Source of the DNA: Cupriavidus taiwanensis LMG 19424
GTDB lineage: Bacteria; Pseudomonadota; Gammaproteobacteria; Burkholderiales; Burkholderiaceae
Reading direction: 5' to 3'
Length of the DNA stretch: 64,000 bases
Assembly (NCBI RefSeq): GCF_000069785.1
Contig: NC_010528.1
Span: forward strand, 1,984,001-2,048,000
The notes below the pieces were generated by a model. The model was not told the origin of the DNA and ran no database searches. It was given only the letters and a program-made list of their open reading frames with translations. Positions within the stretch are counted from its first letter, which is position 1, and each line of letters starts with the position of its first letter. Of this stretch, positions 7,401 to 10,054 are shown piece by piece. The position numbers and the translations under genes were made by a program.

Positions 7401-8549
7401 CAGCGAGGTTTCGGCGACGTTGGTCGCCAGCACGATGCGCCGCGCATTCGACGGCTTGAACACCCGCTCCTGCTCCTGCACCGACAGCCGCGCGAACAGC
7501 GGCAGGATCTCGGTATGCGGCGGGTGGTGCTTGCGCAGCGCCTCGGCGGCCTCGCGGATCTCGCGCTCGCCGGGCAGGAATACCAGCACGTCGCCGGGGC
7601 CGGCGCGGCACAGCTCGTCGACGGCATCGACGATGCCGTCGTACAGGTCGCGCTCGCGCGCCTGCGGGCTGCGCGGCGCGCCGGCGGCGGGCGCGTCGTC
7701 GGCGATCGGGCGGTAGCGCACCTCCACCGGATACAGCCGGCCGCTGACCTCGATCACCGGCGCCGGCTTGTCGCCCGTGGCGAAATGCCGGGCAAAGCGC
7801 TGCGCGTCAATGGTGGCCGAGGTGATGACGACCTTCAGGTCCGGCCGCCTGGGCAGGATTTGGCGCAGGTAGCCGATCAGGAAGTCGATGTTGAGGCTGC
7901 GTTCGTGCGCCTCGTCGATGATCAGCGTGTCGTAGGCGCGCAGCAACGGGTCGTTCTGCGTTTCGGCAAGCAGGATGCCGTCGGTCATCAGCTTGACCGA
8001 CGCCCCCGACGACATGGTGTCGTTGAAGCGCACCTGGTAGCCCACGTGCTCGCCCAGCGGCGTGCCGAGCTCCTGCGCGATGCGCTTGGCGGTCGAGGTG
8101 GCGGCGATGCGGCGCGGCTGGGTGTGGCCGATCAGCCCCCCGCCCTCGCGGCCGGGGCCGCGCCCGATCGACAGGCAGATCTTGGGCAGCTGCGTGGTCT
8201 TGCCGGAACCGGTCTCGCCGGAAACGATCACCACCTGGTTGGCCAGCAGCGCCGCGGCAATCTCATCGCGGCGGGCCGATACCGGCAGCGATTCGGGGAA
8301 GGTGATCGGCGGCAGCGGGTTGACCGGGCGCGGCGCACGCGGCGGCCGCGGCGGGCGGGCTTCACGCGGCGGGCGCTGGCCGCCCTCGGTGGCCGGCCGC
8401 GCACCGGCGGGCCGGGCCGGGCCCGCCTGCGGCTGCCGGGCCGGACCGGGCGCCGGGCGGGACTGGGCTGGGGAAACGGGCTGACCGGCACCCGCGCGCT
8501 GGCGCGGCGCGGCCGGTGGTTTGGGCTTGACGGGGCGTTGTTCTGACAT
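4497..8549 (-). CDS. hrpA: ATP-dependent RNA helicase HrpA
   Basis: 1350-residue DEAH-box helicase. Walker A GETGSGKTTQ, the DEAH box in IIDEAHERS, motif III SATID and motif VI QRAGRCGRV are all visible in the N-terminal half, followed by the HA2/OB region and the long HrpA C-terminal domain. In E. coli HrpA helps rescue stalled ribosomes and process mRNA. The first ~75 residues form a Pro/Arg/Ala-rich disordered extension with repeated PPR and RP units. The ATG at 8549 has no Shine-Dalgarno sequence and sits 8 bases after a perfect minus-strand TATAAT, so the mRNA may be leaderless. It is divergent from argA. Confidence 0.96.
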   Translation of the reverse strand: MSEQRPVKPKPPAAPRQRAGAGQPVSPAQSRPAPGPARQPQAGPARPAGARPATEGGQRPPREARPPRPPRAPRPVNPLPPITFPESLPVSARRDEIAAALLANQVVIVSGETGSGKTTQLPKICLSIGRGPGREGGGLIGHTQPRRIAATSTAKRIAQELGTPLGEHVGYQVRFNDTMSSGASVKLMTDGILLAETQNDPLLRAYDTLIIDEAHERSLNIDFLIGYLRQILPRRPDLKVVITSATIDAQRFARHFATGDKPAPVIEVSGRLYPVEVRYRPIADDAPAAGAPRSPQARERDLYDGIVDAVDELCRAGPGDVLVFLPGEREIREAAEALRKHHPPHTEILPLFARLSVQEQERVFKPSNARRIVLATNVAETSLTVPGIRYVVDTGLARVKRYSYRNKVEQLQVEAISQAAANQRAGRCGRVANGICIRLYEESDFAGRPRFTDPEILRSSLAAVILRMKALRLTDIESFPFIEPPLGRAVADGYQLLQELGAVDDANQLTGTGRQLAKLPLDPRVARMILAAREHHCLREVLIIASALSVQDPRDRPQEAQEAADQAHRKFMDEKSEFLGWVRLWKWFEDAVAHKKSNRQLQDQCRAHFLSHLRLREWRDVHSQLLTTVTEQGWRLNDSEPTYEQVHKALLTGLLGNVGCRIEDGDGKGREYLGARGIKFHLWPGTLIARKVGRWVVAAELVETSRLFARTLARIEPEWLEQVGRHLLKVSWSDPHWEKKAGQVLALERATLYGLVVYQHRRVHYGPMNPREARELFIRRALVEGEFDTRLPFYAHNQRLVREIENLEHKSRRQDVLVDDELIYAFYDRAIPADICQQATFEQWYQAESANDRKLLYLNRDELMRHEAAGITTDLFPKTMTVAGVDMGLTYHFEPGSHRDGVTLTVPLYALNQVRPERADWLVPGMIKEKVHLLLKSLPQKLRRHCVPLPDYAAGFVARQPFGEGELLDVLIADIREQTGTMVRRADFKLETLPAHHAMNFKVIDEHGRQLDMGRNLAQLRAELGGQAQQSFQRVAAQAAADAAAQAPGQAPETPALAAAEPGKYEGLTGWSFGELPELLEIRKGSQTLFGYPALVDRGTHCDVEVFDDPQEAARIHHLGLRRLFALQLREQVKFIEKNIPGLQQMAMQYMTLGTQEMLREQIVMLALERACMQAPLPRNDAEFNARKDEGRTRLSLLAQEIARLVGAILAEYAGLPRKLLQAKPFPGAYADMEAQLGRLMGKRFIDDTPYTQLVHFPRYLKGIAMRVDKLKGDPARDSQRMQEMAPLVQQWQRAEKQLRTQGRGGEDARLEEFRWMLEELRIALFAQELRTPVPMSVKRLQKVWESMQR

Positions 8550-8555
8550 TGGCCG

Positions 8556-8567
8556 GGATTATAATCC
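8556..8567. promoter_or_regulatory. Palindromic shared -10 element for divergent hrpA and argA
   Basis: GGATTATAATCC is a perfect 12-base palindrome, so both strands contain a consensus TATAAT: plus 8560-8565, minus 8563-8558. On the plus strand 7 bases separate it from the argA ATG at 8573; on the minus strand 8 bases separate it from the hrpA ATG at 8549. Transcription normally starts about 7 bases past the -10 box, so both mRNAs would begin at or within a base or two of their start codons. The -35 regions are weak (plus: TTGTTC at 8538-8543 with a 16-base spacer). No Shine-Dalgarno is visible for either gene. The sequence is observed; promoter activity is inferred. Confidence 0.6.
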
Positions 8568-8572
8568 GCGGG

Positions 8573-10054
8573 ATGAACGCCAGAACCGACGCGCCGCAGA
8601 CGGCGCCTGCCTCCGCTCCCGCTTCTTCTGCCGCCCCGGCCTCCTCCGCCGCCGAGGCGCAGGCGGAGTCCCGCGCCACGGCCGAACTGCCTGCCCCCGC
8701 GCCGACCTCTCCCGTGCCCGTCACCGCCGATCTGGATCGCAGCGGCCCGGACCACCAGCAGTTCGTCGACTGGCTGCGCATGGTCGCGCCGTATATCCAT
8801 GCCTTCCGCGGCAAGACCTTCGTGATCGCCTTCGCCGGCGAACTGGTCAAGTCGGGCGTGCTGAACGCGCTGGTCAATGACGTCGCGCTGCTGCACGCCA
8901 TGGGCATGCAGATCGTGCTGGTGCACGGCTCGCGCCCGCAGGTGGAAGAGCAGCTGGCGCTGCGCCATGTCGAGTCGCAATTCGTCGACGGCGTGCGCGT
9001 CACCGACAACGCCGCGCTCGAATGCGCCAAGGAAGCCGCCGGCGAACTGCGCCTGGACATCGAGGCCGCGTTCAGCCAGGGCCTGCCCAACACGCCGATG
9101 GCCGGCGCCCAGCTGTCGGTGATCTCCGGGAACTTCGTCACCGCGCGCCCGGTCGGCATCGTCAACGGCACCGACTACCAGCACACCGGCCTTGTGCGCA
9201 AGATCGACGCCGAATCCGTGCGCATGTCGCTGTCGCACGGCAAGGTGGTGCTGCTGTCGCCGCTGGGCTTCTCGCCCACCGGCCAGGCCTTCAACCTGTC
9301 GATGGAAGACGTGGCCAGCGCCACCGCCACGGCGCTCAAGGCCGACAAGCTGATCTTCATCACCGAGGTGCCGGGCGTGCCCGACCCGGTCGGCAAGATG
9401 ATGCAGGAAATGTCCCTGCGCACCGCGGTGGAGCGGCTGCAGAACAACCACCTGCCCCCCGACGTGGCCAACTACCTGCAGCACCTGGTCAAGGCGCTCA
9501 AGGGCGGCGTGCCGCGCGCGCACCTGATTCCCTACTCGCTCGACGGCGCGGTGCTGCTGGAGCTGTTCCTGCACGACGGCGTCGGCACCATGCTGTCCGA
9601 CACCGACCTGGAGAGCCTGCGCGAGGCCACGCTGGACGACGTCGGCGGCATCGTGCAGCTGATCGCGCCGCTGGAGCAGGACGGCACGCTGGTGCCGCGC
9701 GGGCGCCACCTGATCGAGCGCGATATCGGCAACTTCTCGGTGATCGAGCACGACGGCGTGCTGTTCGGCTGTGCCGCGCTGTACGACTATCCGCGCGAGA
9801 ACATGGGTGAGATGGCGTGCCTGACGGTATCGCCGGAAGCCCAGGGCACCGGGGACGGCGAGCGCCTGCTCAAGCGCATCGAGCGCCGCGCCCGTGCGTT
9901 GGGGCTGGAGCGGCTGTTCGTGCTCACCACGCGGACCGAGCACTGGTTCCTCAAGCGCGGTTTCGTCCACGCCACGGTCGACGACCTGCCCGAGGACAAG
10001 CGCAAGCTCTACAACTGGCAGCGCAAGTCGATGGTGCTGATGAAAAAGCTGTGA
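8573..10054 (+). CDS. argA: N-acetylglutamate synthase (ArgA)
   Basis: 493 residues from the ATG at 8573; an in-frame TTG at 8549 is rejected because it overlaps the start of hrpA. Classical two-domain ArgA: an amino acid kinase-like domain (about residues 70-330; FVIAFAGELVKSG, IVLVHGSRPQVEEQL) followed by a GNAT acetyltransferase domain with MACLTVSPEAQGTGDG as the acetyl-CoA loop. It makes N-acetylglutamate from glutamate and acetyl-CoA, the first step of arginine synthesis, and the kinase-like domain normally binds arginine for feedback inhibition. The first ~50 residues are an Ala/Pro/Ser-rich extension not seen in the E. coli enzyme. Confidence 0.96.
   Translation: MNARTDAPQTAPASAPASSAAPASSAAEAQAESRATAELPAPAPTSPVPVTADLDRSGPDHQQFVDWLRMVAPYIHAFRGKTFVIAFAGELVKSGVLNALVNDVALLHAMGMQIVLVHGSRPQVEEQLALRHVESQFVDGVRVTDNAALECAKEAAGELRLDIEAAFSQGLPNTPMAGAQLSVISGNFVTARPVGIVNGTDYQHTGLVRKIDAESVRMSLSHGKVVLLSPLGFSPTGQAFNLSMEDVASATATALKADKLIFITEVPGVPDPVGKMMQEMSLRTAVERLQNNHLPPDVANYLQHLVKALKGGVPRAHLIPYSLDGAVLLELFLHDGVGTMLSDTDLESLREATLDDVGGIVQLIAPLEQDGTLVPRGRHLIERDIGNFSVIEHDGVLFGCAALYDYPRENMGEMACLTVSPEAQGTGDGERLLKRIERRARALGLERLFVLTTRTEHWFLKRGFVHATVDDLPEDKRKLYNWQRKSMVLMKKL

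Follow-up and report, generated by a model that had tools for sequence, protein, structure and literature searches.

The divergent genes hrpA and argA of Cupriavidus taiwanensis LMG 19424 are separated by only 23 nt, between an ATG at 8549 on the minus strand and an ATG at 8573 on the plus strand. All positions refer to the analysed window, a stretch of 64,000 nucleotides with a GC content of 68% (contig NC_010528.1, positions 1,984,001 to 2,048,000). The gap very probably constitutes a single bidirectional promoter of the sigma-70 type that serves two leaderless or near-leaderless mRNAs. It holds the palindrome GGATTATAATCC, whose core ATTATAAT contains a complete TATAAT hexamer on each strand (Table 1).

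A putative palindromic -10 box between two start codons

We propose that RNA polymerase opens the one palindromic -10 box in either orientation. Each RNA would start about 7 nt past its hexamer, no more than about 2 nt from the start codon. Both mRNAs would then be translated leaderless or nearly so, and both start codons would be part of the promoter layout. Owing to the geometry of the site, polymerase would occupy only one orientation at a time and the two complexes would be mutually exclusive. Two-way transcription, the 5' ends, leaderless translation and single-orientation occupancy are all predictions from the sequence.

An earlier note on this DNA had described the self-complementary 12-mer with TATAAT on both strands, its distances to the two start codons and the lack of a Shine-Dalgarno sequence at both genes. 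All three observations were borne out when sequence and coordinates were checked. On the argA side, the hexamer at 8560-8565 is followed by 7 nt (8566-8572) and the ATG, on the hrpA side the minus-strand hexamer (8563-8558) by 8 nt (8557-8550) and the ATG. The best match to AGGAGG in the 20 nt upstream of either gene covers 3 of 6 positions. In leaderless (TA-led) genes, a TANNNT box precedes the start codon by about 10 bp, as described by Zheng et al. (2011, PMC3160421), and TATAAT at 7 and 8 nt from the ATGs reproduces this arrangement. Both proteins scored above the curated NCBIfam cut-offs, for amino-acid N-acetyltransferase and ATP-dependent RNA helicase HrpA, respectively.

Table 1 Features of the hrpA-argA intergenic region and its flanking genes (window coordinates)
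Feature	Position	Strand	Remark
12-bp palindrome GGATTATAATCC	8556-8567	both	own reverse complement; outer GG/CC not general
Core palindrome ATTATAAT	8558-8565	both	two full TATAAT overlapping by 4 bp (TATA); part kept in relatives
Putative argA -10 element TATAAT	8560-8565	+	from sequence; predicted function
Putative hrpA -10 element TATAAT	8558-8563	-	from sequence; predicted function
Predicted argA transcription start	8571-8573	+	from -10 spacing; at most 2 nt from ATG
Predicted hrpA transcription start	8549-8551	-	from -10 spacing; at most 2 nt from ATG
argA, amino-acid N-acetyltransferase, 493 aa	8573-10054	+	ATG at 8573
hrpA, ATP-dependent RNA helicase HrpA, 1350 aa	4497-8549	-	ATG at 8549

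A search of the window for the 12-mer with up to 2 mismatches gave one match against 0.30 expected, which is weak when taken alone, because 27 of 100 shuffles also yielded at least one match. In the whole 6.48-Mb genome the exact 12-mer occurs at one place, as does the 8-mer ATTATAAT, which lies between hrpA and argA; the reversed 8-mer, used as control, occurs at five. The main evidence for the site is comparative.

Conservation of the box and its spacings

In the genus, 49 of 50 genomes contain the pattern ATTATAATN4-9ATG on both strands at one place; the exception (G431) is a 78% complete genome. Inspection put the match immediately before argA in 46 of these genomes; in two others it lies at a contig end (G009, G041), and one was left out (G430). 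The AT prefix before TATAAT is what also creates the minus-strand hexamer and makes the box two-sided. Elsewhere in the 50 genomes it is rare. When the 98 matches at the hrpA-argA site are subtracted from the 813 for TATAATN4-9ATG, 715 other sites are left, and the prefix occurs in 15 of them (113 matches minus 98), compared with 12 prefixed sites for the reversed pattern. None of the 12 other such sites in the genome of C. taiwanensis carries it.

At family level, the comparison covered the sequence upstream of argA in 97 genomes, 49 of the genus and 48 of 125 other family hits that were hand-picked across genera. Two of the 97 reach a contig end, leaving 95 loci. In 84 loci the palindrome is accompanied by an ATG at 8 nt whose frame has no stop within the sequence read, and in one more (L083) this frame stops after 38 codons. 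Four loci have the palindrome without an ATG at 8 nt: L088, discussed below; L090, with 9 nt instead of 8; L091, where the palindrome stands beside another gene in an AT-rich genome; and L092, with no hrpA frame. Entries resting on a codon only, for g50 (10), g51 (7) and one g42 locus (9, L092), were rejected as hrpA starts; the palindrome of g51 adjoins a cytochrome-like open reading frame (ORF) in an AT-rich genome. The pattern CATN8ATTATAAT has matches in 225 of 299 family genomes, a count that includes chance matches in AT-rich genomes.

A set of named loci comprised the best 80 of 583 argA relatives, hence close ones, and partly overlaps the unnamed family set. All of them except one, whose contig begins too late (L245), carry ATTATAAT or ATTATATAAT with an hrpA-side ATG at exactly 8 nt. 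The hrpA-side frame includes the helicase motif GETGSGKTTQ in 66 of these 79 loci and stops after 125-217 codons in three, and in all 79 there is no in-frame start codon upstream of the ATG. An in-frame argA ATG lies at 6 or 7 nt from the box in 67 of the 79. Start codons in frame farther upstream are found in 47 of these 67. Such an upstream argA start (in C. taiwanensis an in-frame TTG at 8549, in many relatives ATG or other codons) was not preferred, because the remaining 20 loci have none. The argA frame shifts relative to the palindrome (spacers of 6, 7 and 8 nt) while the 8-mer stays constant; what is conserved is therefore not an encoded peptide, and a peptide constraint was ruled out as the cause of conservation.

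The earlier note proposed to check whether palindrome and spacing recur in relatives. With 49 of 50 genus genomes and 79 of 80 named loci this proved to be so for the 8-mer, and not for the 12-mer: the conserved unit is ATTATAAT together with the spacings, and the outer GG...CC is mostly lost outside the Cupriavidus and Ralstonia types. Across nine genera of the named set (inferred labels), most spacer columns are variable and the 8-mer forms the anchor.

The Pandoraea loci show a second geometry. CATGGGCGCGCATTATATAAT was found in 27 of 32 genomes of g42 (Pandoraea, an inferred label) and lies just upstream of argA in the 11 of these 27 with an argA hit. The 10-mer ATTATATAAT is 2 bp longer and likewise self-complementary; both strands still read TATAAT, and the hrpA ATG remains 8 nt away. 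Among the other five g42 genomes, G124 and G147 carry the 8-mer and keep hrpA at 8 nt (L064, L065), G088 has the 8-mer and no hrpA frame (L092), and G291 and G306 have one CATN8ATTATAAT match each, at a location not among the matches listed.

Three lineages differ in how the genes adjoin the box. In six Pandoraea loci (L209, L210, L212, L213, L214, L222), an ATG 6 nt downstream of ATTATATAAT is out of frame with argA. It opens an ORF of 8 codons (MFAHVHPC), and the stop codon of this ORF overlaps with the start of argA (ATGCTGA), an arrangement present in 6 of 6 named 10-mer loci; a leaderless mini-ORF of this kind may pass ribosomes on to argA. The Ralstonia type (L052-L060, L062, L063, L197-L201) has no in-frame argA ATG at 6-8 nt; argA there probably begins at a GTG some 55-67 nt downstream, and the palindrome and the hrpA spacing are kept. 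In L094 and L095 (g44), hrpA and argA are still divergent, the symmetry is lost and TATAAT faces argA. The only hrpA start codon seen there overlaps the box region, and hrpA of these two loci may use another element.

Beyond the family, tblastn placed hrpA divergent to argA in 7 of 40 order-level hrpA regions, three of which have ATTATAAT. Its ATGs lie at 6 nt (argA) and 7 nt (hrpA) in L163 of family f18, and in family f8 the argA ATG is 7 nt away in L127 and 6 nt away in L128. L101 (family f18), with the argA ATG and an hrpA GTG at 6 nt, is the only palindrome carrier among 12 argA regions from other families. Of the 40 order-level regions, just four (L163, L126, L129, L140) show an exact TATAAT at a distance of 4-10 nt upstream of an in-frame hrpA start. 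The last three lack argA in the upstream sequence that was retrieved, and their TATAAT lies 7-9 nt before the ATG with the prefixes TG, AC and AA. Genome G054 (family f8) has the two genes apart: its argA (L099) retains TATAAT 7 nt before the ATG with the prefix TA, its hrpA (L126) 9 nt before the ATG with the prefix TG and not AT. Each gene can therefore keep a leaderless-type box alone, without symmetry. Symmetry appears, in these small numbers, to go with the divergent pair.

Departures from the layout and alternative explanations

A number of observations weigh against a common promoter for two leaderless mRNAs. Four of the seven order-level divergent pairs (L131, L133, L155, L160) lack such a palindrome, as do six of the 95 family loci (three in g44, two in g53, one in g54). 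In L127 the first hrpA ATG stands 40 nt from the box, and in L128 47 nt; the box can therefore be common to both genes while only argA is leaderless and hrpA has a leader. In L088, which has kept the palindrome, the first hrpA ATG lies at 35 nt. On the other strand, argA is outside the layout in 12 of the 79 named loci though the palindrome is intact; four of these are titled Ralstonia, one Burkholderiaceae bacterium 26, six Pandoraea and one Robbsia. The titles do not always fit, as L192, titled Ralstonia, has the Cupriavidus form. The start codon of argA or that of hrpA has thus moved off in some lineages, with the palindrome remaining in place. In addition, leaderless-type sites as such are only modestly enriched in the 50 genus genomes, since TATAATN4-9ATG occurs 813 times and the reversed pattern 577 times. 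Finally, the core is not alone in being invariant: a G two bases before the 8-mer and a C one base after it are equally so.

The surroundings of the box add to these points. The -35 region of the 79 named loci was scored as the best of spacers 15-19 against TTGACA (and TTGCC), with 1580 places as background; an earlier pass had used spacers 16-18 and the three commonest values per genus. There was no clear -35 element: the mean match to TTGACA was 2.92 of 6 on the argA side and 2.70 on the hrpA side, compared with 2.49 and 2.60 in the background. Of the 79 loci, 23 score 4 of 6 on the hrpA side, and 161 of 1580 background places have at least 4. The Burkholderia form TTGCC was not enriched either (1.87 vs 2.64; 2.41 vs 2.42). 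Neither hexamer has a TGn motif as read from the sequence, no T is present at -18 for the starts predicted on either strand (8571-8573 on the plus and 8549-8551 on the minus strand), and no standard sigma-70 promoter was found in 8300-8900.

These departures bear first on the possibility that the promoter is used in a single direction. The second TATAAT would then arise from the near-symmetry of -10 elements, and transcription of the second gene would start elsewhere. In Escherichia coli and Salmonella, symmetry of the -10 element alone often gives divergent and frequently non-coding RNA, according to the main texts of two studies (PMC12825309, PMC10268837), and the palindrome has been kept where argA (12 of 79 loci) or hrpA (L088, L127, L128) has left the layout. 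We nevertheless consider this explanation unlikely. The AT prefix that makes a box two-sided occurs in 15 of the 715 other genus sites, compared with both strands here in 49 of 50 genomes. The Pandoraea 10-mer retains both hexamers, and in L126, L129 and L140, where hrpA has no adjoining argA, TATAAT comes without the prefix.

Alternatively, the palindrome could be the operator of a dimeric regulator, with the promoters elsewhere. A perfect inverted repeat between divergent genes would suit such a function, and arginine genes are commonly regulated. An operator is nonetheless very improbable, as the conserved dyad measures only 8 bp and its flanks are asymmetric in Burkholderia and Caballeronia loci. 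Its centre grows by 2 bp in Pandoraea, so that the half-sites have no fixed spacing, the hrpA ATG is held at 8 nt, a constraint not required by an operator, and ATTATAAT occurs at a single genome place.

Least of all do we expect leadered transcripts that start inside the opposite gene and are translated without a Shine-Dalgarno sequence, TATAAT being coincidental: the absence of a clear -35 element at the proper distance and the farther in-frame argA start codons in 47 of 67 loci would fit, but the 8-mer and the hrpA spacing are invariant across the named genera, and no other upstream start codon exists for argA in 20 of 67 loci or for hrpA in 79 of 79.

Relation to known promoters and possible competition between the two directions

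A bidirectional promoter at the hrpA-argA site would have relatives. Bidirectional promoters with symmetric -10 elements are well established and were reportedly described by Warman et al. in 2021. According to a further study, a start-to-start distance of 18 bp is the commonest among them, and 10 and 23 bp are frequent too; the 18-bp geometry is a preference that allows small variations, and -18T is described for the 18-bp class and not required (PMC12825309). Divergent start pairs 7-25 bp apart have been counted as bidirectional in the main text of another (PMC10268837). As in these promoters, the putative -10 elements of hrpA and argA overlap on both strands, here sharing 4 bp, with mutually exclusive orientations. 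Unlike in the 18-bp class, the 4-bp overlap of full-consensus hexamers leads to a predicted start-to-start distance of 21 bp (24 bp from the A of the ATGs), and the site is without -18T. For the Pandoraea 10-mer the prediction is 23 bp, a distance that the known class also has (PMC12825309, main text). Like the hrpA-argA site, known bidirectional promoters are often tied to an mRNA; at the hrpA-argA site both predicted products are leaderless coding mRNAs. The word leaderless is absent from the main texts of both studies (PMC12825309, PMC10268837).

The site likewise resembles the established class of TA-led genes (PMC3160421), in that a -10-like box replaces the Shine-Dalgarno sequence and the start codon stands at the expected transcription start; it differs in that one box would serve two genes on opposite strands. 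Leaderless transcripts have been mapped in the same family. For Burkholderia cenocepacia J2315 there are 72 genes with transcription from the start codon and 42 from within 10 nt of it, 24 of them tRNAs (PMC4603805), and for Cupriavidus metallidurans CH34 leaderless mRNAs make up 4.67% of primary starts (PMC7563307); the -10 consensus is TAnAAT. The figure for C. metallidurans speaks for the proposed reading of the present site. Neither of the two main texts mentions argA, hrpA or the term bidirectional, and in the open-licence literature searched we found no paper that joins hrpA, argA and leaderless. To our knowledge, the combination of a 4-bp overlap, giving 21 bp, with two predicted leaderless mRNAs that are both coding, and its retention in much of a family, make the site a novel form of an established class.

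The earlier note went further and proposed that competition for the box couples the expression of argA and hrpA. While the comparison supports the common palindromic -10 box and its two divergent, probably leaderless or near-leaderless genes, the proposed coupling finds no support. In five E. coli bidirectional promoters that were tested, basal activity was so low that the two directions did not compete, and competition set in only once one direction was strongly raised (PMC12825309). For the E. coli acrA/acrR promoter an effect on noise has been reported. Little competition is the default expectation here as well, because there is no clear -35 element, although the hexamers are full consensus on both sides.

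The hrpA-argA site presents the problem of the bidirectional promoter at its core, with two full-consensus putative -10 elements that share 4 bp, no clear -35 and, as predicted here, no leaders. It comes with a long evolutionary record in two geometries (8-mer and 10-mer) and with natural changes of one partner, namely argA in Ralstonia and Pandoraea and hrpA in L088, L127 and L128, and of both where the genes are apart in G054. As a tentative and rather doubtful extension, the gap might act as a minimal two-gene control module in which the promoter and both start codons are fused and polymerase competition sets or steadies the ArgA:HrpA ratio. As long as both mRNAs are leaderless, any change of such a module would have to be symmetric, like the step between the 8-mer and the Pandoraea 10-mer.

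Leaderless expression in C. taiwanensis may extend to other genes. At nine of the 12 other TATAATN4-9ATG sites in its genome (L111, L115, L118 and six others), the ATG opens an ORF of 115 aa or more and TATAAT precedes this ATG by 5-8 nt; for two of the ORFs there are further start codons in frame upstream. These nine ORFs are probable leaderless genes by this sequence pattern. Three of them resemble DEAD-box helicase, DnaB and MutL, with the N-termini judged by eye only.

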